In this document: piece after piece, positions 1,359 through 34,913 of the stretch
Position numbering within the stretch: position 1 is the first letter of the stretch
Layout of the letters: each line of letters starts with the position of its first letter
Origin: Microbacterium sp. SCN 70-27
GTDB lineage: Bacteria > Actinomycetota > Actinomycetes > Actinomycetales > Microbacteriaceae
Direction of reading: 5' to 3'
NCBI GenBank assembly: GCA_001724425.1
Contig: MEEK01000010.1
Coordinates: 71,058-135,057 of the forward strand
DNA: 64,000 nucleotides
Program-made: the position numbers and the translations under genes
The notes under the pieces: model-generated
Database searches by the model: none
What the model saw: only the letters and a program-made list of their open reading frames with translations
What the model was told of the DNA's origin: nothing

Positions 1359-2063
1359 GTGCGCATCGACGTCGTCACGATCTTCCCGGCGTTCTTCGAC
1401 GTGCTGGAGGTGTCCCTCCTCGGCAAGGCGCGCGGCAGGGGCATCCTCGACGTACGCGTGCATGACCTCCGCGATCACGCCCACGACAAGCACCGCACCG
1501 TCGACGACACCCCGTATGGCGGGGGAGCGGGCATGGTCATGAAGCCCGAGCCGTGGGGCCAGGTGCTCGACGAGATCGCCGAATCCGGCCCCGGGGATGC
1601 GCCGGTGTTCGTGTTCCCTTCACCTGCGGGCGAGGTGTTCACTCAGGCGACGGCGCGGGAGCTGGCGGAAGAGCCGCACCTCGTGTTCGGCTGCGGGCGG
1701 TACGAAGGCATCGACGAGCGCGTGTTCGAGTACGCCGCAACTCGCGGCCGCGTGCGTCTCGTGAGCCTGGGGGACTACGTCCTCAACGGCGGCGAGGTCG
1801 CGGCGATGGCGATGATCGAGGCGATCGGGCGTCTCATCCCGGGCGTCGTCGGCAACCCCGAGAGTCTCGTCGAGGAGTCCCACGAGGACGGGCTGCTCGA
1901 GTACCCCTCGTACACCAAGCCCGCCTCATGGCGTGGCCTGGAGGTGCCCGAGGTGCTGCTCAGCGGCCACCACGGCAAGGTCGCCGGGTGGCGCCACGAC
2001 CAGCAGGTCGAGCGCACGCGGGCGCGCCGCCCCGATCTGCTGCCGGCTCCCGACGAGGGCTGA
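1359..2063 (+). CDS. trmD: tRNA (guanine-N1-)-methyltransferase TrmD
   Basis: SPOUT-class enzyme that methylates G37 next to the anticodon using S-adenosylmethionine, preventing +1 frameshifts. The 234-residue protein shows the family signatures [14 protein letters not shown] (about residues 52-65), [12 protein letters not shown] (about 113-124) and the knot region [11 protein letters not shown], which binds SAM. The start is GTG at 1359, directly behind rimM. In many actinobacteria rplS follows directly; here map and a membrane-protein gene lie between, and a strong inverted repeat follows the stop. Confidence 0.98.
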
Positions 2064-2107
2064 CGCCGGGGCATCCGCCGGTGTCGGGGCATCCGCGGCG
2101 TCGCGCA

Positions 2108-2190
2108 TCACCGACGCAGGAGATCTCACCAAGACAGGCCGTTTCAGCCGCTTTCGTCCTGTGTCGGTGACATCTCCTGTCTCTGTGAGG
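2108..2190. repeat. Long inverted repeat between convergent trmD and map
   Basis: A left arm at 2116-2138 (GCAGGAGATCTCACC then AAGACAGG) pairs with a right arm at 2158-2181 (CCTGTGTC then GGTGACATCTCCTGT) over about 23 positions with about four mismatches, around a loop of about 19 nt. It lies between convergent genes, so it may act as a bidirectional terminator. The arm sequence is not a plain GC stem plus T-tract and looks like a REP-type palindrome. Confidence 0.75.
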
Positions 2191-2236
2191 CGGGGATGCC
2201 CGTATGCCCGGCCGCGCAAGGCGCCGGCGCACAGCC

Positions 2237-3019
2237 TCAGTCGACGCCGAGGAACGACCGGTCGGTGAGAATCAAGGGCCCGTCCGGCGTGATCGCGACG
2301 GTGTGCTCGGCGTGCGCGCCGCGGGAGCCGTCGGCACTGCGGAGCGTCCACCCGTCGGGGTCGGTGACGAGCTCGTCGGTCGTCTGCAGGAACCACGGCT
2401 CGAGCGCGAGGACGAGGCCCGCCCGCAGCGGGTAGCCGCGGTTCGGCTTGCCGTCGTTGGGGACGTGCGGATCGCCGTGCATCGTGCGCCCCACGCCGTG
2501 GCCGCCGAAGTCCGTGTTGATGCTGTACCCGTCGGCGTGCGCGACGGTGGCGATCGCCGCGGAGATGTCGCCGATCCGCGCCCCCTCGACGGCAGCGCCG
2601 ATCGCGGCATCCAGCGCCCGCTGCGTCGTGTCGATGAGCGCGAGATCCTCGTCGCGGGCCGTTCCGACGATGAACGAGACGGCGGAGTCGGCCACCCAGC
2701 CGTCGACGGATGCCGCGAAGTCGAGTGAGACGAGGTCGCCGTCGCGCAGTGTGTAGTCGAAGGGGAGGCCATGCAGCACGGCGTCGTTGATCGAGGTGCA
2801 GATCACCTTGCCGAAGGGCATCGCACCGAACGAGGGGTGATAGTCGATGTAGCAGGACTCGGCGCCGGCCCTCCGGATCATGTCGTGCGCGCGTCGGTCG
2901 ATCGTCAGCAGGTTCGTGCCGACTGTCGTCTCATCGCGAAGCGTCGCGAGCACCTCCGCGACGAAGCGTCCCGCCGGTCGCATCGCGTCGACCTCGGCAG
3001 GGGTGCGCAGCTCGATCAT
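2237..3019 (-). CDS. map: Methionine aminopeptidase, type I
   Basis: Metal-dependent enzyme that removes the initiator methionine from nascent proteins. The 260-residue protein has the pita-bread fold signatures: SINDAVLHG with the substrate-binding His, the metal ligands in VSLDFAASVDGWVADSAV (two Asp), GHGVGRTMHGDP (His), ALEPW (Glu) and AEHTVAI (Glu). The ATG at 3019 was chosen because a good AGGAAAGG ribosome binding site precedes it; in-frame ATGs at 3043 and 3073 lack one and overlap the divergent gene's start. It converges on trmD and diverges from the membrane-protein gene at 3072. Confidence 0.97.
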   Translation of the reverse strand: MIELRTPAEVDAMRPAGRFVAEVLATLRDETTVGTNLLTIDRRAHDMIRRAGAESCYIDYHPSFGAMPFGKVICTSINDAVLHGLPFDYTLRDGDLVSLDFAASVDGWVADSAVSFIVGTARDEDLALIDTTQRALDAAIGAAVEGARIGDISAAIATVAHADGYSINTDFGGHGVGRTMHGDPHVPNDGKPNRGYPLRAGLVLALEPWFLQTTDELVTDPDGWTLRSADGSRGAHAEHTVAITPDGPLILTDRSFLGVD

Positions 3020-3058
3020 GGTGTTCCTTTCCTCAGGTTCCATTCTGGTGGACGGGCG

Positions 3059-3064
3059 TACCAT
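3059..3064 (+). promoter_or_regulatory. Probable leaderless -10 element (TACCAT)
   Basis: TACCAT ends 7 nt before the ATG at 3072, and no ribosome binding site is present. This matches the window-wide TANNNT-N6/7-start pattern. Confidence 0.5.
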
Positions 3065-3071
3065 CGGGGGC

Positions 3072-3572
3072 ATGGCGTTGCGCAGTGGCTTCTACCGGTG
3101 GCTGATCCCGGCGGCGTTCGTGCTGCCGTTCTGGCTGTTCGTCGGTTGGATCATCTCCGGGGCGAGCGCCCTGTCGCTGCTGTGGGTGCTGCTGTCGGCG
3201 CCGATCGTCCTCGTCGGGCAGCTCATCCTCACGCTTCTCATCCGTGCGCGGGGAACGGCCCGCGCAGAGCGCGCCGTCTCGTGGACGGATCTGGCGCTCG
3301 TCGGCAGCTGGAACGTGCTCATCATCGCTCTGGGGTTCTTCCAGAACCCGTGGTGGTGGCTGCTGTTCGCCGTGACGGTCGTCGTGGGCATCGCCGCTCT
3401 GATCGGAGGCTTCCGCCAGCTGTGGCGCGAGGCGAAGCCGACCGCGCGGGTGCTGCACACGCCCGACGGGTTCGGCTACATCCCGCCGACGGCGGCCGCG
3501 GGCCGTCCGTCGCATACGGCGGATGCCGAGGTGATCGTCATCCACGAGAACGGCGCGCCGCCCGCCGTCTGA
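3072..3572 (+). CDS. Small integral membrane protein, function unknown
   Basis: A 166-residue protein with about four hydrophobic helices (roughly residues 8-33, 37-60, 75-92 and 95-115) followed by a soluble tail of about 45 residues. The stretch GFFQNPWWWLLFAVTVVVG is rich in Trp. I recognise no catalytic motif; relatives in Microbacteriaceae carry only vague transporter-like names. The ATG at 3072 is preferred over upstream in-frame starts, which would overlap map antisense and lack a translation signal. Between map and rplS it stands alone, so context does not reveal a role. Confidence 0.75.
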   Translation: MALRSGFYRWLIPAAFVLPFWLFVGWIISGASALSLLWVLLSAPIVLVGQLILTLLIRARGTARAERAVSWTDLALVGSWNVLIIALGFFQNPWWWLLFAVTVVVGIAALIGGFRQLWREAKPTARVLHTPDGFGYIPPTAAAGRPSHTADAEVIVIHENGAPPAV

Positions 3573-3578
3573 CTCGTT

Positions 3579-3607
3579 TTGGCTCGCGCGCCCGGACATG
3601 GCAGAAT
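3579..3607 (+). promoter_or_regulatory. Promoter of rplS
   Basis: TTGGCT at 3579-3584 and CAGAAT at 3602-3607 are separated by 17 bp, a good housekeeping-sigma match. Transcription would start near 3614, leaving an rplS leader of about 120 nt. Confidence 0.6.
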
Positions 3608-3735
3608 GGCTGTTTGTGCCCTGATCAGGCTCTGCCTCAGGGGAGCACGGCCGCGGATTCCGCAGTCTCGGGCACGCACCTTCCTTTTCAACTCATCTCG
3701 CGATCGACCTGTGGCGGTCGCAGGAAGTGACGATC

Positions 3736-4083
3736 ATGCAGATCCTCGACTCCGTCGACGCGGCATCACTGCGCAGCGACATCCCCGCCTTCGCCCCCGG
3801 CGACACCGTGAAGGTGCACGTCAACATCACCGAAGGAAGCCGCTCGCGCGTCCAGGTGTTCCAGGGCGTCGTCATCCGTCGCTCGGGCGACAGCGTCCGT
3901 GAGACCTTCACGGTCCGCAAGATCAGCTTCCAGGTGGGCGTCGAGCGCACCTTCCCGGTTCACTCCCCGGTGATCGACCACATCGAGGTCGTCACCCGCG
4001 GTGACGTGCGTCGCGCGAAGCTCTACTACCTGCGCGAACTGCGCGGCAAGAAGGCCAAGATCAAGGAGAAGCGCGACAACTGA
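3736..4083 (+). CDS. rplS: 50S ribosomal protein L19
   Basis: Large-subunit protein located at the interface with the 30S subunit. The 115-residue product has family landmarks [47 protein letters not shown] and the basic C-terminus [20 protein letters not shown]. The ATG at 3736 is chosen because AGGA at 3722-3725 sits 10 nt upstream; an in-frame GTG at 3727 is too close to that site. The gene has its own promoter and is closed by a strong hairpin, so it is probably monocistronic. Confidence 0.97.
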
Positions 4084-4100
4084 CGCGCGTCATCTCTTCG

Positions 4101-4140
4101 AGAGCCCCGAACCGGCATCCTGCCGTTCGGGGCTCTTGTC
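4101..4140 (+). terminator. Rho-independent terminator of rplS
   Basis: The arms AGAGCCCCGAACCGGCA and TGCCGTTCGGGGCTCT (4101-4136) form a stem of about 16 bp with a one-base bulge and a tiny loop, followed by TGTCAT. It lies 18 nt after the rplS stop. Confidence 0.85.
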
Positions 4141-4231
4141 ATACCGTGGCATGACACGCGGAGGGCGCCGAGTGTGCGACCCTTGAGGGGGCGCGTGCCG
4201 AGTCGTGGTGCGCTTATGAGATAGGGCGTGC

Positions 4232-4975
4232 ATGACCTCCGAGAACCTGGCCGCGCCCGAGGCCCCCGCGATGAGGCCGCGCCGTCGCCGACGCCGCGGG
4301 ATCTGGCCTCTTGTCCGCGACATCCTTGTGATCGTCGTCGTGGCCGTCCTCGTCTCGTTCGTCATCAAGACGTTCTTCGTGCGCTCGTTCTACATCCCGT
4401 CGGGATCGATGGAGCAGACGCTCCTCATCAAGGACCGGATCCTCGTCGACGAGTTCACCCCGCACTTCTCGGGGTACGAGCGCGGCGACGTCATCGTGTT
4501 CCGCGATCCGGGCGGCTGGCTTCCGGTCTCCGCGACGCCCCCGCGCCCCCCGCTCGTGGAGGCATGGGACTGGGTGCTCTCCCTCGTCGGCATCTCCGCA
4601 CCCGACAGCGAGGACCACCTCATCAAGCGGATCATCGGTGTCGGCGGAGACCACGTCGTCTGTTGCAACGCGCTCGGGCAGGTGACCGTCAACGGCACTC
4701 CGATCGACGAGACGCGGTACCTCGACCTCGCACCGGGCCAGAGCGCACCTGTCGTCAAGCCCTACGACGTCACCGTCCCCGAGGGATCCTTCTGGGTGCT
4801 GGGCGACAACCGCGATCACTCGCAGGATTCCCGCTACAACACCGACCAGCCCTCGCACGGCTTCGTCCCCGAGCAGAACGTCGTCGGACGGGCTTTCCTC
4901 ATCACCTGGCCGTTCTCGCGCTTCGGCGGCATCGACTTCCATCACGACGTGTTCGCCGGGGTGCCGAAGGGATGA
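4232..4975 (+). CDS. lepB: Signal peptidase I
   Basis: Membrane serine protease that cleaves Sec and Tat signal peptides outside the membrane. The 247-residue protein has a basic cytoplasmic N-terminus (a run of Arg at 16-22), one membrane helix (about 27-46) and the catalytic Ser/Lys dyad: Ser59 in IPSGSMEQTL and Lys132 in HLIKRIIGVGGD. The later boxes VLGDNRDHSQDSR and VGRAF complete the S26 family set. Its stop overlaps the rnhB start by four bases, as in many actinobacteria. Start ATG 4232; no clear ribosome binding site precedes it. Confidence 0.97.
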   Translation: MTSENLAAPEAPAMRPRRRRRRGIWPLVRDILVIVVVAVLVSFVIKTFFVRSFYIPSGSMEQTLLIKDRILVDEFTPHFSGYERGDVIVFRDPGGWLPVSATPPRPPLVEAWDWVLSLVGISAPDSEDHLIKRIIGVGGDHVVCCNALGQVTVNGTPIDETRYLDLAPGQSAPVVKPYDVTVPEGSFWVLGDNRDHSQDSRYNTDQPSHGFVPEQNVVGRAFLITWPFSRFGGIDFHHDVFAGVPKG

Positions 4976-5631
4976 CCGTGATCACGCCTCGCCTCACGGT
5001 CGAGCGTCGGCTGCTGCGGGAGCACGCCCTCATCATCGCGTGCGACGAGGTGGGCCGCGGGGCGCTTGCGGGCCCGGTCGCGGTCGGAGCGGTGACGGTG
5101 GATGCCGCGCGGGCCCGCCGCCGCGTGCCGGAGGGTCTGCGCGACTCGAAGCTCGTCGCCGAGCGGCGTCGCCCCGAGGTGGCGCAGCGTGCGGCGGACT
5201 GGGTGGGCGCGTCGGCTGTCGGGTGGGCGAGCGCCGCGGAGATCGACGAGGTCGGGATCCTCCGGGCACTCGGGCTTGCGGCACTGCGCGCGATCGCGGA
5301 CCTGCGCGCGGCGGGCGTCGTCCCGGAAGAGGCGGTGGTCGTCCTCGACGGCAACCACGACTACATCACGCCGGCGGGCGGCGCGGGCCTTCGGGTGCAG
5401 CCGATCGTGAAGGCAGACCGCGACCTGGCATCCGCCGCCGCGGCATCCGTTCTCGCGAAGGTCGCGCGCGACGACCTCATGGTGCGTCTGCACGACGAGG
5501 CGCCCGTATACCAGTGGTCGCGCAACAAGGGGTACGCGAGTGCGGAGCATCGTGCCGCGATCAGCTCGCACGGTCTCAGCGCGCACCACCGCGCCTCGTG
5601 GGCGATCGCCGATGCGCCGACGCTGTTCTGA
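4972..5631 (+). CDS. rnhB: Ribonuclease HII
   Basis: Removes RNA from RNA-DNA hybrids and starts excision of misincorporated ribonucleotides. The 219-residue protein carries the catalytic set of type 2 RNases H: Asp-Glu in ACDEVGRGALAGP, Asp in VVLDGNHDY, and Asp in KADRDLASAAAASVLAKVARD's first half. The ATG at 4972 overlaps the lepB stop (ATGA), which fixes the start and implies coupling. An upstream extension of this frame through lepB is only an antiphase shadow. Confidence 0.96.
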   Translation: MTVITPRLTVERRLLREHALIIACDEVGRGALAGPVAVGAVTVDAARARRRVPEGLRDSKLVAERRRPEVAQRAADWVGASAVGWASAAEIDEVGILRALGLAALRAIADLRAAGVVPEEAVVVLDGNHDYITPAGGAGLRVQPIVKADRDLASAAAASVLAKVARDDLMVRLHDEAPVYQWSRNKGYASAEHRAAISSHGLSAHHRASWAIADAPTLF

Positions 5632-5639
5632 GCGCCGCC

Positions 5640-5645
5640 TAGACT
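5640..5645 (+). promoter_or_regulatory. -10 element TAGACT before the DUF2469 gene
   Basis: TAGACT ends 9 nt before the ATG at 5655. A transcript starting about 7 nt after it would have almost no 5' leader. Confidence 0.5.
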
Positions 5646-5654
5646 GGACGCACC

Positions 5655-5978
5655 ATGGATGACGAAGTCTTCGAGGATTACGACCGCGAGCTCGAGCTGG
5701 CTCTGTACAAGGAGTACCGCGACGTCGTATCGCAGTTCGCGTATGTGATCGAGACCGAGCGGCGCTTCTATCTCGCGAACGACGTGAACGTCGTCCGCCG
5801 TGACACGGAGCACGACTTCTACTTCGAGATCTCGATGACCGATGTCTGGGTCTGGGACATCTATCGCGCCGACCGCTTCGTGAAGTCGGTCCGTGTGCTC
5901 ACGTTCAAGGACGTCAACGTCGAGGAGCTGCAGCGCCGCGACTTCCAGCTGCCCGAGGAACTGTCGCTCGACACCTGA
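5655..5978 (+). CDS. DUF2469 family protein
   Basis: Conserved actinobacterial protein of 107 residues with unknown biochemistry. The N-terminal MDDEVFEDYDRELELALYKEYRDVV and the aromatic core SMTDVWVWDIYRADRFV are diagnostic of the family. It is acidic, soluble and has no signal peptide. Its position, rnhB-DUF2469-yraN, is widely conserved in actinobacteria, suggesting a nucleic-acid or envelope-linked role, but that is only inference. It probably has its own near-leaderless promoter. Confidence 0.9.
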   Translation: MDDEVFEDYDRELELALYKEYRDVVSQFAYVIETERRFYLANDVNVVRRDTEHDFYFEISMTDVWVWDIYRADRFVKSVRVLTFKDVNVEELQRRDFQLPEELSLDT

Positions 5979-6079
5979 GCGCCGCATCGCCCTCTCCCCA
6001 GCAGGGGATTTCGTCGATCCATCCACGGATCGGCTGATTCGCCGGGCGCGGTGATCGCGGTTTCCGTCACGATGCCTGC

Positions 6080-6442
6080 ATGGCAGACAAGGACGTGCGA
6101 GGGCGCGCGGGCGAGGATCGCGCCGCCGCGTACCTGCGGACGCAGGGGTACGCCCTGCTCGACCGCAATTGGCGGTGCGCGCAGGGGGAGATCGACATCG
6201 TCGCGGCGCGCGGGGGAGAGCTCGTCGTCGTCGAGGTGAAGACCCGTCGGACGGAGTCGTTCGGCCACCCCTTCGAGGCCATCGATCGGCGCAAGCGGGA
6301 CCGGCTCTGGCGACTGTCGGCGGCGTGGGTCGCCGCACATCCGGATGCCGCGCGGCACCGCCGCCTGCGCATCGACGTCATCGGGATCATCGGTGACGAC
6401 CCCGCCCATGCGTCACTGGAACATCTCGAGGGGTTGGAATGA
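6080..6442 (+). CDS. YraN family protein (UPF0102), endonuclease-like fold
   Basis: A 120-residue member of the UPF0102 family, which adopts a Holliday-junction-resolvase/restriction-nuclease-like fold. The PD-(D/E)XK-type core is visible: Glu-Asp in GRAGEDRAAAYL, GEIDIVAAR and VVVEVKTRR. Family function is unknown. It overlaps comM by four bases (ATGA at 6439), and the yraN-comM-dprA order suggests involvement in processing incoming or damaged DNA. CACGAT ends 6 nt before the ATG, a weak match to the leaderless pattern; no ribosome binding site is evident. Confidence 0.92.
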   Translation: MADKDVRGRAGEDRAAAYLRTQGYALLDRNWRCAQGEIDIVAARGGELVVVEVKTRRTESFGHPFEAIDRRKRDRLWRLSAAWVAAHPDAARHRRLRIDVIGIIGDDPAHASLEHLEGLE

Positions 6443-7971
6443 CCGTCGCGCGCACGTGGGGTGTGGTCCTCACCGGCATTCAGGGCGACCTCGTCGAGGT
6501 CGAGGCAGACCTCTCGCAGCAGACACCGGGCTTCACGATCATCGGCCTTGCGGACAAGGCCATCGGCGAGGCGACGCAGCGCGTGCACAACGCGTGCGCG
6601 AACAGCGGGCTGCCGCTGCCGCGTCGGAAACTCACGGTGAATCTCTCGCCCGCGAGCCTCCCGAAACACGGGTCGGCTCTCGATCTGGCCATCGCGATCG
6701 CCGCGCTCGCGACGCAGGCGCCGATGGATGCCGCGTCGCTCCTCACCACGGCTCACATCGGCGAACTGGGGCTCGATGGGCGGTTGCGACCCGGCGCCGG
6801 TGTGCTCCCCGCCGTCGTCGCCGCGATGCGGGCGGGCGTGCGGAAGGTCGTCGTGCCGTGGGCGAACCGGGAAGAGGCGGGACTCGTCCCGGGAGTCGAG
6901 GTGTTCGGAGCGGTGTCACTGCGCGAGGTGGCGCGCCATCACGGGCTTGAGGTCGATCCCGTCGACGAGGAGCCGATGCCCCTGACCGGAACCGCCGATG
7001 CGCTCGAGGACACGGTGCCCGACCTCGAGGACGTGATCGGACAGCGAGATGCCGTCGAGGCGCTCATCCTCGCCGCCGCGGGTGGTCACCACGTGCTCAT
7101 GAGCGGGCCACCGGGGGCCGGCAAGACGATGCTCGCCCAGCGGATGCGGGGGATCCTGCCCGACCTCGGTGACGAGGAGGCGGTGCAGAGCGCCGCGCTG
7201 CGTTCCTTGTCGGGGGTTCCGGTTCGGAGCCTCACCCGGACGCCGCCCTTCGAAGCGCCGCACCACAGCGCGAGCATGGCGTCGCTCATCGGCGGCGGGA
7301 GCCGCACGGTGCGGCCCGGCGCGATCGCGCGCGCATCGGGAGGAATCCTGTTCCTCGATGAGGCGGGGGAGTACAGCGCCCACGCGCTCGATTCGCTGCG
7401 GCAGCCGCTCGAGTCGGGGAGTATCGAGATCCATCGGGCCGGGTTCCGCGCGGTCTTCCCCGCGCGGTTCCAACTCGTCCTCGCGACGAATCCGTGCCCG
7501 TGCGGCAACTACGGCGTGCCGCGCGCAGAATGCCGCTGCCCGTCGCTCGCGATCCGCCGCTACCTCGGGAAGCTGTCCGGTCCGCTTCTCGACCGGATCG
7601 ACATCGAGCTCTCCCTCCAACGGGTCGCGGTCGCGGGTCTCCGGGCGGATGACGGCACCCGGGTGACCACCGCCGTCGCGCGCGGACAGGTCGTCGAGGC
7701 GCGGGAGCGCGCGGCGCGACGCCTCGCCGGGACACCGTGGCGGACGAATGCGGACGTCGCGGGTGCCTGGCTCCGCGATGGGCCGCTCGCGCCCGACGCC
7801 GCGATCCGCCGGCCGCTCGATGCGGCGCTCCAGCGCGGGGCGCTGACCCTGCGGGGGTTCGATCGCGTGCTGCGAGTCGCCTGGTCGCACGCCGACATGG
7901 CGGGTCGCGAACGGCTCGCGCTCGAAGATGTCGGGCGTGCTCTTTCGCTGAAGCGCGGGGTGCGGTCATGA
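6439..7971 (+). CDS. comM: ComM/YifB-type Mg-chelatase-like AAA+ ATPase
   Basis: Hexameric AAA+ ATPase; in Vibrio and other naturally competent bacteria ComM is a branch-migration helicase that extends recombination with incoming DNA. The 510-residue protein has an N-terminal Lon-like/ChlI domain (about 1-190), Walker A GPPGAGKT (about residue 223), Walker B ILFLDEAGE, the Mg-chelatase signature NPCPCGNYG with CRCPS, and a C-terminal lid domain. It is translationally coupled to both yraN and dprA by four-base overlaps. Whether the organism is naturally competent cannot be read from this window. Confidence 0.94.
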   Translation: MTVARTWGVVLTGIQGDLVEVEADLSQQTPGFTIIGLADKAIGEATQRVHNACANSGLPLPRRKLTVNLSPASLPKHGSALDLAIAIAALATQAPMDAASLLTTAHIGELGLDGRLRPGAGVLPAVVAAMRAGVRKVVVPWANREEAGLVPGVEVFGAVSLREVARHHGLEVDPVDEEPMPLTGTADALEDTVPDLEDVIGQRDAVEALILAAAGGHHVLMSGPPGAGKTMLAQRMRGILPDLGDEEAVQSAALRSLSGVPVRSLTRTPPFEAPHHSASMASLIGGGSRTVRPGAIARASGGILFLDEAGEYSAHALDSLRQPLESGSIEIHRAGFRAVFPARFQLVLATNPCPCGNYGVPRAECRCPSLAIRRYLGKLSGPLLDRIDIELSLQRVAVAGLRADDGTRVTTAVARGQVVEARERAARRLAGTPWRTNADVAGAWLRDGPLAPDAAIRRPLDAALQRGALTLRGFDRVLRVAWSHADMAGRERLALEDVGRALSLKRGVRS

Positions 7972-9149
7972 CCGGCCTCGATCTGAGCCCCGCGCACGCC
8001 AGAACGCGGCTCGGAGCACTCATCGATGCGGGCGACGACGTCGACGCGGTCACCGCGTACGCGCGCGCCGTCTGGACGACGCTCATCGAACCCGGGGACC
8101 GCGTCGCCGGCGCCCTGATCGCCGCACTCGGGCCAGCCCGGGCACTCGAGGTCGCGCATGGGTCGGGAGCCGTCGATGCCGACGTCGATCCGGAGGAGGT
8201 CGCGCGCGGACGCGCGCGCTGGATGCCGCGAGCGCGTGCCGAATCGCATGACCTCGGTCTCGCGCAGCGCAGCCGTGTGCGGCTCGTGACGCCCGAGGAC
8301 TCCGCCTGGCCGACGGCACTGGACGACCTCGGTCCCTTCGCGCCCGTGTGCCTCTGGGTGCGGGGTGACGTCGACTGCCTCGGCGGCGCCGCAGTGGCCC
8401 TCGTCGGTGCACGCGCGTCGACGAGCTACGGCGAGATGGTGACTGCCGACATCGCCGCCGAGGCCGTCGTGGCCGGGGTGACCGTCTGCTCCGGTGGCGC
8501 GTACGGTATCGACGGTGCCGCGCACCGTGCGGCGCTCCTCGCCGGTGGTGTGACCGTCGCAGTGATGGCCGGTGGCGTCGAACGGGCCTACCCCGCAGGT
8601 CATCGCGACCTGCTGGAGCGGATCACCACCTCCGGCGCGGTCGTCTCGGAGGTTCCCTGCGGCTCGGCCCCCACCAAACACAGGTTTCTCGCCCGCAATC
8701 GCGTCATCGCGGCGCTGAGTGCTGCGACGGTCGTCGTCGAGGCGGGCTGGCGAAGCGGTGCTCTCAACACGGCGCATCACGCCGCAGCGATCGGGCGGCC
8801 GGTCGGGGCCGTGCCCGGTCCCGTCACGAGCGCCGCGTCGATGGGATGCCACCGGCTGCTGCGCGAGGGGAGTGCGGTCTGCGTCACCGGCTTTCCCGAT
8901 GTCGCAGACCTCCTCGGCGTCTCGCCGACTCCGATCGCGGCCGAGGGCGACGGTTACACCGGCGACCGCACCCGCATCCTCGATGCGCTGAGTGCGCGCA
9001 CGCCCCGTAGCACGGAGGACGTTGCGGGCCGTGCGGGGTTCGCGGTCGACGAGGCAGCCTCGCTCCTCGGATTGCTGGAGCTCGAGGGCCTCGTCGTCCG
9101 ACGTGCGATGGGATGGGTGCAGGAGTCACCCACCGCGACACTCTGGTGA
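7968..9149 (+). CDS. dprA: DNA-processing protein DprA (Smf)
   Basis: Binds incoming single-stranded DNA and loads RecA during transformation; widely kept even in species not known to be competent. The 393-residue protein holds the Rossmann-like DprA core: VALVGARAS, SGGAYGIDGAAHRAAL, AVMAGGVERAYP, FLARNRVIAALS and AGWRSGALNTA, in that order. A winged-helix-like C-terminal domain (about 325-385) follows. The ATG at 7968 overlaps the comM stop by four bases. The true start is not the upstream in-frame codon at 7737, which lies inside comM. Confidence 0.95.
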   Translation: MTGLDLSPAHARTRLGALIDAGDDVDAVTAYARAVWTTLIEPGDRVAGALIAALGPARALEVAHGSGAVDADVDPEEVARGRARWMPRARAESHDLGLAQRSRVRLVTPEDSAWPTALDDLGPFAPVCLWVRGDVDCLGGAAVALVGARASTSYGEMVTADIAAEAVVAGVTVCSGGAYGIDGAAHRAALLAGGVTVAVMAGGVERAYPAGHRDLLERITTSGAVVSEVPCGSAPTKHRFLARNRVIAALSAATVVVEAGWRSGALNTAHHAAAIGRPVGAVPGPVTSAASMGCHRLLREGSAVCVTGFPDVADLLGVSPTPIAAEGDGYTGDRTRILDALSARTPRSTEDVAGRAGFAVDEAASLLGLLELEGLVVRRAMGWVQESPTATLW

Positions 9150-10967: not shown

Positions 10968-11867
10968 ATGGCCGTCGTCACCATTCGCCAGCTGCTCGAC
11001 AGCGGCGTCCATTTCGGACACCAGACCCGCCGGTGGAACCCGAAGGTCAAGCGCTTCATCCTCACGGAGCGCTCCGGCATCCACATCATCGACCTGCAGC
11101 AGTCGCTCGGGTACATCGACAAGGCGTACGAGTACGTCCGCGAGACCGTCGCCCACGGCGGCACGGTCCTGTTCGTCGGCACCAAGAAGCAGGCGCAGGA
11201 AGTCATCGCCGAGCAGGCGACGCGCGTCGGCCAGCCCTTCGTGAACCAGCGTTGGCTCGGTGGTCTGCTGACCAACTTCCAGACCGTCAGCAAGCGTCTC
11301 GCGCGCATGAAGGAGCTCGAGGAGCTCGACTTCGACAACCCCGCCGACTCGGGCTTCACCAAGAAGGAGCTCCTGCTCAAGAAGCGTGAGCTCGACAAGC
11401 TGCACAAGTCGCTCGGTGGTATCCGCAACCTGCAGAAGACGCCGTCGGCCATCTGGGTCGTCGACGCCAAGCGCGAGCACCTCGCGATCGACGAGGCCAA
11501 GAAGCTCGGCATTCCCGTGATCGGCATCCTCGACACGAACGCCGACCCGGACGAGTTCCAGTTCCCGATCCCGGGCAACGACGACGCGATCCGCTCGGTG
11601 GGCCTGCTCACCCGCATCATCGCCGACGCCGCGGCCGAGGGCCTCATCCAGCGCCACCAGCCGACCGAGGAGTCGGCGGACGCCGAGCCGCTGGCCGACT
11701 GGGAGCGCGAGCTCCTCGAACAGGGCGGGTCGGCCGAGGCCGCCGCTGAGGCTCCCGTCGTCACCGACGTCGCCGAGGTCGAGACCATCGCGACCGAGTC
11801 GGCTGCCGACGAGGCCGGCGCCGAGGCGAAGGCCGAAGGCGACGCCGCGGCCGCCGCTGCCGAGTAA
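10968..11867 (+). CDS. rpsB: 30S ribosomal protein S2
   Basis: Small-subunit protein at the 16S rRNA head-body junction, needed for S1 or leader binding. The 299-residue protein begins [19 protein letters not shown] and keeps the family boxes RWNPKMK-like ([10 protein letters not shown]), [19 protein letters not shown] and [10 protein letters not shown]. The last 70 residues form an Ala/Glu-rich acidic tail absent from E. coli S2 but common in high-GC Gram-positives. AAAGGAG lies 7 nt before the ATG. It is followed by a partial hairpin and then tsf. Confidence 0.97.
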
Positions 11868-11889
11868 GACACCTCTTCCCGCTTCGCGG

Positions 11890-11912
11890 GGCCGTCGCCC
11901 ACCCGGCGGCGG
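11890..11912 (+). terminator. Hairpin between rpsB and tsf (possible attenuator)
   Basis: CCGTCGCC and GGCGGCGG pair around a short loop just after the rpsB stop, with no T-tract. It could reduce read-through into tsf rather than stop it. Limits are approximate. Confidence 0.4.
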
Positions 11913-11969
11913 TCCCGCGGCGGCATCCTCCGCACAGATCACTGAATTCCGACTAAGGAGCCACCACCC

Positions 11970-12711
11970 ATGGCCAACTTCACGATCGCCGACATCAAGG
12001 CGCTGCGCGAGCAGCTCGGCACCGGCATGGTCGACACCAAGAAGGCGCTCGAGGAGGCCGACGGCGACCTCGAGAAGGCCGTCGAGATCCTCCGCCTCAA
12101 GGGCGCGAAGGGCAACGCGAAGCGACTTCGTGGCGAAGAACGAGCGCTTCATCGCGCTGGCCGCGAAGGTCCTCGAGGCCGCCGCCGCGGTCGACGCCGA
12201 GTCGGCCGAGGCCGCCCTCGCCGCCCCCGCCGGTTCGCAGACGGTCGCGGAGCTCATCTCCGACGAGGCTGCGATCATCGGCGAGAAGGTCGAACTGCGC
12301 CGCGTGCGCACGCTCTCGGGCGACAAGTTCGAGATCTACCTGCACAAGACGAGCAAGGATCTGCCCCCGCAGGTCGGCGTCGTCCTCGCCTACACGGGCG
12401 ATGACGCGGAGACGGCTCGCTCGATCGCGCAGCACATCTCGTTCGCTAACCCCTCCTACCTGACCCGCGAGGACGTCCCCGCGGCCGAGGTCGAGAAGGA
12501 GCGCGAGATCGTCACCGAGATCTCCCGCAACGAGGGCAAGCCCGAGGCGGCGCTGCCGAAGATCGTCGAAGGCCGCGTCAACGCGTTCTTCAAGCAGGTG
12601 GCCCTGCTCGACCAGGACTACGCGAAGGACAACAAGCTGTCCGTCGCGAAGGTCGCCGGCGACGCAGGCATCACGATCACCGACTTCGCCCGCTTCAAGG
12701 TCGGCGCGTAA
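11970..12711 (+). pseudogene. tsf: Elongation factor Ts gene with internal deletion and frameshift
   Basis: EF-Ts recycles EF-Tu-GDP to EF-Tu-GTP and is normally essential. Residues 1-52 read correctly from ATG 11970 ([20 protein letters not shown] through GNAKR). At 12123 the frame then shifts: [16 protein letters not shown] and the rest of EF-Ts to KVGA continue in the +2 frame to 12711. Compared with family members, about 29 residues between GNAKR and TDF are missing, including the Thr of the EF-Tu-contacting TDF motif; the loss is near 89 nt. Neighbours rpsB, pyrH and frr are intact. A separate 193-codon frame could begin at GTG 12130 but has no ribosome binding site. This is either an assembly error or a real lesion. 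Confidence 0.9.
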
Positions 12712-12816: not shown

Positions 12817-13536
12817 GTGACCGATGAGACCACCGGACGCCGCCGCGTCCTGCTGAAGCTGTCCGGCGAAGCGTTCGGCGGGGGGCAGTTGGGCGTCAAC
12901 CCCGACGTGGTCGGCCAGATCGCGCGCGAGATCGCCGCGGCGGTCGACCGGGTCGAGGTCGCGATCGTCGTCGGCGGCGGCAACTTCTTCCGCGGCGCGG
13001 AGCTCAGCCAGCGCGGCATGGATCGCGGTCGCGCTGACTACATGGGCATGCTCGGCACGGTCATGAACGCCCTCGCACTCCAGGACTTCCTCGAGCAGGC
13101 GGGTGCCGCGACCCGCGTGCAGTCGGCGATCTCGATGACGCAGGTCGCCGAACCGTACATCCCGCGGCGTGCCGAACGGCACATGGAGAAGGGGCGCGTC
13201 GTGATCTTCGGCGCCGGTGCGGGGCTGCCGTACTTCTCCACCGACACGGTCGCCGCGCAACGCGCGCTCGAGATCGGCGCCGACGAGGTGCTCGTCGCGA
13301 AGAACGGCGTCGACGGCGTCTACACCGCCGACCCGAAGAAGGATGCCTCGGCGACGAAGATCGACACGATCACCTACCAGGACGCGCTGCAGCGGGGTCT
13401 CAAAGTCGTCGACTCCACCGCGTTCAGCCTCTGCATGGACAACCGGATGGGTATGCGCGTGTTCGGCATGGAGCCCGCGGGGAACGTGACGCGGGCGCTC
13501 CTGGGCGAGCCCATCGGCACGCTCGTCACGGTCTGA
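12817..13536 (+). CDS. pyrH: UMP kinase
   Basis: Phosphorylates UMP to UDP in pyrimidine nucleotide synthesis. The 239-residue amino-acid-kinase-fold protein has [11 protein letters not shown] near the start, the nucleotide/UMP loop [13 protein letters not shown], and [14 protein letters not shown] near residue 170, all typical of bacterial PyrH. GTG 12817 was chosen because AGAGGA sits 6 nt upstream; an in-frame start at 12772 falls in the promoter/terminator region. TACTCT at 12788-12793 is a possible -10. It follows the tsf terminator and precedes frr. Confidence 0.96.
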
Positions 13537-13557: not shown

Positions 13558-13588
13558 CGACACCGACGCAACAACGAATGGAGTGACC

Positions 13589-14143
13589 GTGATCGCCGAG
13601 ATCCTGGCCGACACGTCCGGGCGCATGGACCGCGCCGTCGAGGCCGCGAAGGACGACTTCGCCACCGTCCGCACGGGCCGAGCGAACCCGCAGCTGTTCC
13701 AGAAGGTCATGGTCGACTACTACGGCACGCCGACCCCGCTGTCCCAGCTCGCGTCGCTCAACGCGCCCGAGGCGCGCATGCTCGTCGTGACGCCGTACGA
13801 CAAGTCGGCGCTGAAGGCCATCGAGCAGGCGATCCGGGACATCCCGAACCTGGGGGTCAACCCCACGAACGACGGCAACCTCGTCCGCATCACGATGCCC
13901 GAGCTCACCGCCGACCGCCGCAAGGAGTATGTGAAGCTCGTCCGCACCAAGGGTGAGGACGCCAAGGTGCACCTGCGCGGCATCCGGCGCAAGGCGAAGG
14001 ACGAACTCGACGCGCTCAAGAGCGAGGTCGGCGAAGACGACCTCGTGCGCGCGGAGAAGGAGCTCGACGCGGTCACGCGCACGCACGTCGACGAGATCGA
14101 CGAGGCGCTCAAGCGCAAAGAGGCAGAGCTTCTCGAGGTCTGA
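13589..14143 (+). CDS. frr: Ribosome recycling factor
   Basis: Splits post-termination ribosomes together with EF-G. The 184-residue protein has the family's length and motifs: [16 protein letters not shown] in the first helix, [29 protein letters not shown] and the C-terminal [24 protein letters not shown]-type helix. GTG 13589 is preferred: GGAG at 13580-13583 then sits 5 nt upstream and the length matches the family, whereas GTG 13583 overlaps that site. It is followed five bases later by cdsA. Confidence 0.94.
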
Positions 14144-34316: not shown

Positions 34317-34913
34317 TCAGTCGACGAACTCGGTGTGGAAGCTGAACGCAGCGAGCGCCCGTCGCAGCGCATCGGGCTCGCCCGCGGCCCGCACCCGCAC
34401 GACGTGCCCGCGGGCGGGATCCTGCGCGGCCTCGACGGAGGCGAGGGGGACCCGGAGCTCCTCGGCGACCGCCATGCAGACGTCCTCGATCTCCCGCAGG
34501 ACGAGGCTCGGCTTGAAGATCTTGCCGACAGCGGTCGTCGGTAGCTGATCGACGATGCGGACGACGCGCGGGCGGGCGGCCCGCTCGCCGACGTGGGCGG
34601 TCGCGTACGCGAGCAGTTCCTCCTCCGTCGCCGCGGCGCCCGGGGTGAGCTGCACGTAGACGACCGGCACCTCGCCCGCGTGGGCGTCAGGCCGCCCCAC
34701 GGCGGCGGCGAGTGCCACGGCGGGATGCTCGTGCAGGCCGATCGATCCGACCCGTACGGCCGCATCGGCGGGGTTGACGCTCGAGGCGCAGGTTCCCTCC
34801 GTGAGACCGTATGCCTCGAGTACGCGCACGCCCGTGCGCCGCGGGAACTCACGGAACAGCTCCTCGGGCAGTGGCGCCGCCCCGCAGATCCATTGGCGCA
34901 TCCGGATGAGCAT
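34317..34913 (-). pseudogene. Eroded acyl-CoA synthetase (N-terminus and hinge missing)
   Basis: An open frame of 198 codons from ATG 34913 encodes only parts of an AMP-forming acyl-CoA synthetase. It starts in the middle of the fold (ICGAAPLPEELF, then LEAYGLTEGTCAS), then jumps from RVGSIG directly to LHEHPAVALAAAVGRPDAHAGE, skipping about 100 residues that normally carry the TGD and hinge motifs, and ends with the C-terminal domain (PTTAVGKIFKPSLV). The ATP-binding loop is absent, so it cannot be an active ligase. Frame is kept throughout the remaining parts. It sits beside an intact relative and before gatC on the other strand. Confidence 0.8.

Follow-up and report, generated by a model that had tools for sequence, protein, structure and literature searches.

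The tsf gene of the window, by which we mean the whole 64,000-nucleotide stretch of DNA analysed here (G000:C10:71058-135057, from the draft genome of Microbacterium sp. SCN 70-27), is split in two pieces at position 12124, where the sequence and its ORF translations reveal a change of frame together with 86 missing nucleotides. We regard an artefact of assembly or consensus as the most likely origin of this break, and in the cells tsf is most likely intact, as it is in PS02067, a relative bearing the same species label. Four points chiefly favour this reading: nearly all genomes of the genus have EF-Ts, the PS02067 tsf is whole, the remainder of the gene shows no decay and the draft is visibly incomplete.

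The 5' piece (11970..12124, plus strand) translates to EF-Ts residues 1-52 and matches TIGR00116 positions 1-53. The 3' piece (12124..12711, plus strand) lies in another frame, runs from D81 (DFVAKNERF) through KVGA to the stop codon, and matches TIGR00116 positions 81-273. Both pieces thus resemble the EF-Ts family (TIGR00116, PF00889), but profile positions 54-80 are absent, the two pieces lie in different frames, and no single open frame covers the whole of TIGR00116. Taken alone, the 3' piece exceeds the curated cut-offs (143.5 bits vs 104.05 for TIGR00116; 185.6 vs 27 for PF00889), and the 5' piece, at 47.7 bits, stays under that of TIGR00116. Beyond the break, the 5' frame runs on out of frame to a stop (12125..12404, plus strand) without similarity to EF-Ts in translation or profile search. 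Of the TDFVAKN motif only the T is gone, together with the 27 residues preceding it; DFVAKN is kept.

Aligned to PS02067 (locus L032), the missing stretch comprises residues A53-T80, that is 28 residues, plus 2 nt (86 mod 3 = 2), and the junction falls at 12122..12125 on the plus strand. Its placement can slide by 2 nt (CG), which is uninformative because 21% of all 86-nt gap placements in tsf reach 2 nt or more. The neighbouring frames, all on the plus strand, are open and intact: 10968..11867 and 12817..13536, with start codons picked by reading the sequence, and 13583..14143, with the longest start. From the order rpsB-tsf-pyrH-frr, we take these to be rpsB, pyrH and frr, respectively. The frames and profile matches therefore bear out a preliminary description of this DNA, which had reported a deletion and frameshift in tsf within an otherwise intact cluster; its estimate of about 29 residues, close to 89 nt, is revised to 86 nt. 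Over the parts of the window matching the genome of a relative, G177, which leave out stretches such as ~45.2-48.2 and 55.8-58.7 kb, four entries matched G177 ORFs in two frames: tsf, two ORFs overlapping tRNA genes, and a fourth whose second match scored weakly, at 56.6 bits. We read tsf as the sole broken gene among these parts.

PS02067 (Microbacteriaceae bacterium; JASCPG010000004.1) is the only genome labelled as the same species among the 366 compared; its entries L032 and G198 were treated as one assembly, their coordinates being identical in ten matches. It shares the rpsB-tsf-pyrH-frr order with the window but carries the 86 nt, and its tsf is one open frame of 275 codons, with a single match spanning 1-275 without a stop. 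Save for the gap, the window is identical to PS02067 over 11768-12124 and 12125-12338 (357 nt to the left and 214 nt to the right). The remaining tsf codons differ at four places, of which codons 152, 159 and 188 are synonymous and codon 194 changes Ala to Thr, and the 3' piece holds no additional stop or indel. There has therefore been no time of decay and, with only four differing codons, three of them synonymous, the lesion is either very recent or not real. A chimera of two strains at the junction was considered and rejected, the nearest mismatches to PS02067 lying 357 nt to the left and 215 nt to the right; there are 6 mismatches in 2,915 nt to the left and 55 in 3,585 nt to the right, and their density is unchanged at the junction itself.

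EF-Ts is essential in the bacteria tested. With the PS02067 protein as query, matches were found in 364 of 366 genomes; among the matches listed, all alignments span residues 1-275 without a stop. Six genomes gave two matches (the own one, G091, G136, G184, G308 and G354); among the other 358, two gave weak partial matches (G163 and G348) and 356 gave one match with an E value of 2.0e-122 or better, as counted by eye from the table. In the same protein search of 366 genomes, no tsf match was found in G171 or in G053, the latter called 100% complete in 150 contigs. At the DNA level, 197 of 198 genomes searched gave a match, and each of the 80 loci L032-L111 contains one full-length open tsf match.

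Seven other assemblies of the 366 also have a tsf that cannot be read as one frame. In G091, G136, G184 and G354, all single-contig assemblies, it is broken by 1-nt indels, and in G163, G308 and G348 by contig ends; in G163, residues 45-83 are lost between two contig ends, a segment that covers the residues 53-80 lost here. We read these seven as having technical-looking causes, none of them proved to be an error. They differ from the present case in kind, being 1-nt indels or contig ends rather than a clean internal gap, and no clean internal tsf loss of this size was found in the other assemblies of the 366. The junction itself was sought in relatives by a pattern search tolerating up to 3 mismatches, from which a strongly diverged copy could escape; of the 366 genomes, the own one alone showed it.

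The quality of the draft also bears on the question. It comprises 2,654,246 bases in 69 contigs and is 95.37% complete. Contig C10 has 135,057 bases, and its two ends lie ~83 kb and 52 kb away from the junction. One PF00889 match is present in the draft, and a search with the PS02067 tsf DNA returned no second copy, so that the duplicate tsf offered as one alternative in the preliminary description is excluded within this 95.4% complete draft; among the other alternatives given there, a wrong assembly and a suppressor or tolerated lesion, circumstances favour the first. The missing 86 nt recur elsewhere in the draft only as a 35-nt match of 89% identity on C32 (E 2.6e-5), which we rejected as the displaced stretch and took as chance.

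The gene for EF-Tu, tuf, is also largely missing from the draft: EF-Tu is represented by its last third only (profile positions 262-394), cut at the start of C1. When 9 kb of PS02067 around tuf were compared with the draft, C48 and C1 covered positions 28-1727 and 5749-9000 with 99% identity, and positions 1728-5748 found only short repeat-like or distant matches. The draft thus breaks in tuf between C1:1 and the end of C48 (19433), with ~4 kb of PS02067, holding most of tuf and its upstream neighbour, lacking a close match; a 707-aa frame in this PS02067 region, with a weak EF-Tu profile match, is probably fusA. Technical causes have therefore cost this draft indispensable genes, but these losses sit at contig ends, unlike the gap in tsf. 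A repeat of ~80 nt (PS02067 C138 2364-2443 and 4752-4835) is dispersed through the draft in many copies, several of them at contig starts (e.g., C52:1-81, C65:16-55, C20:19-107 and C14:4-42). All of 20 contigs sampled have at least 5,566 bases, as if shorter ones had been removed, which is common practice for metagenome bins, and the draft may be such a bin. It may then stem from a mixed population in which a rare deleted variant or subclone became the consensus while most cells kept an intact gene, but the assembler would have needed to prefer the rarer path, and we consider this account very doubtful.

The alternative that deserves most weight is a genuine, recent deletion in the strain or population, leaving a tsf null that is tolerated for now, either through a suppressor, such as an EF-Tu with faster nucleotide exchange of its own, or by an organism that has no strict requirement for EF-Ts. 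We judge this unlikely. It is consistent with the single clean junction far from the ends of a long contig, with flanks otherwise identical to PS02067 and with further clean gaps relative to PS02067, which indicate that deletions do occur between the two. Against it stand the presence of EF-Ts across the genus, remaining codons that give no hint of relaxed selection, and the role of the protein itself: EF-Ts is stated to be required for EF-Tu recycling (PMC8343077, PMC3938643). Among the titles and abstract openings returned by a literature search, we recognised no description of a bacterium without EF-Ts, and nothing related to PS02067 was found. Any compensating EF-Tu would be encoded by tuf, most of which is missing from the draft.

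The further differences from PS02067 were seen along the whole of C10, for which only matches of >350 nt and >93% identity were kept; the alignment covers 125,777 bases and contains 1,991 mismatches, along with 25 small indels whose length ranges over 1-32 nt. An in-frame gap of 300 nt lies at window position 34736, with GCAG at both ends, in a minus-strand AMP-binding gene (acyl-CoA synthetase-like) whose N-terminal part seems truncated in the two strains alike. At C10 69788, to the left of the window, ~2.8 kb of PS02067, including open frames of 819 and 383 codons, is absent from the draft. Two stretches of C10 of ~4 kb (13.7-18.0 and 21.8-25.8 kb) did not align to PS02067, nor did ~1 kb at 31.4-32.5 kb, where one PS02067 contig gives way to another. 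A further such change falls at window position 7479, within a comM-like gene of the Mg-chelatase type (6427-7968, PF01078), beyond which the window is collinear with a different PS02067 contig; the window is collinear with G177 at this point, and PS02067 may therefore carry an insertion or a misassembly. These comparisons show that the two strains differ by gaps that look real, which favours a genuine deletion in tsf, and the gaps at 34736 and C10 69788 could be real deletions. The scarcity of small indels relative to PS02067 also raised the idea of a reference-guided consensus, which we rejected as unsupported because the pair L073/L089 likewise has 0 gaps, at 3.9% mismatches, and because 25 small indels do occur over 125.8 kb of C10; two further pairs of relatives have 29 and 35 gaps.

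A real deletion might also be bridged by a +1 frameshift at the junction, yielding a shortened but working EF-Ts, an idea to which the two open and conserved halves of the gene lend themselves. The junction codons (AAC GCG AAG CGA CTT CGT), however, contain no stop and no known slippery site when read by eye against familiar slippery-site motifs, in agreement with the preliminary description, which had seen no slippery heptamer at the break. The frame change is moreover not conserved in relatives, given the single occurrence of the junction and the 80 open loci. Residues 53-80, which the shortened protein would not have, align gap-free to residues 52-79 of the E. coli EF-Ts chain 1efu_B and directly precede TDFVAK, a motif that contacts EF-Tu. 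Such a product is unlikely to be functional, and we find this account the least credible, with hardly any probability attached to it.

An assembly or consensus error, which we prefer, would consist of a chimeric or deleted read path in the draft or its reads, or of a faulty join over thin coverage; both the absence of the gap from the cells and the way in which the assembler made it are what we infer. The own draft without a second tsf, the seven other assemblies with a broken tsf and the loss of most of tuf count in its favour. Several observations count against it. First, the gap is internal to a contig of 135 kb and not at a contig end like the loss of tuf, and the two nucleotides shared across the junction are too short for a k-mer assembler to join without some spanning read. 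Second, the lost stretch is ordinary in composition (G+C 67.4% vs 68.0% for tsf) and in folding, with no unusual hairpin (z -0.07), so that nothing explains a coverage hole at the gap; no direct repeat bridging the gap was found beyond CG. Finally, the other clean gaps relative to PS02067 weigh on the same side, as does the finding that the other assemblies of the 366 show no clean internal tsf loss of similar size.

In summary, if the break is an artefact, it matters for annotation only, and the appropriate label for tsf would be a gene broken in the assembly and not a lost one. If real, the deletion would, as far as the sequence indicates, be very young. It seems to us improbable that a clean deletion of 86 nt has, very recently, left a free-living actinobacterium to grow without EF-Ts, presumably by means of an altered EF-Tu that exchanges nucleotide unaided; were it true, the missing tuf of the draft would hold the clue, and nature would have put to the test whether free-living bacteria can dispense with the exchange factor of EF-Tu.
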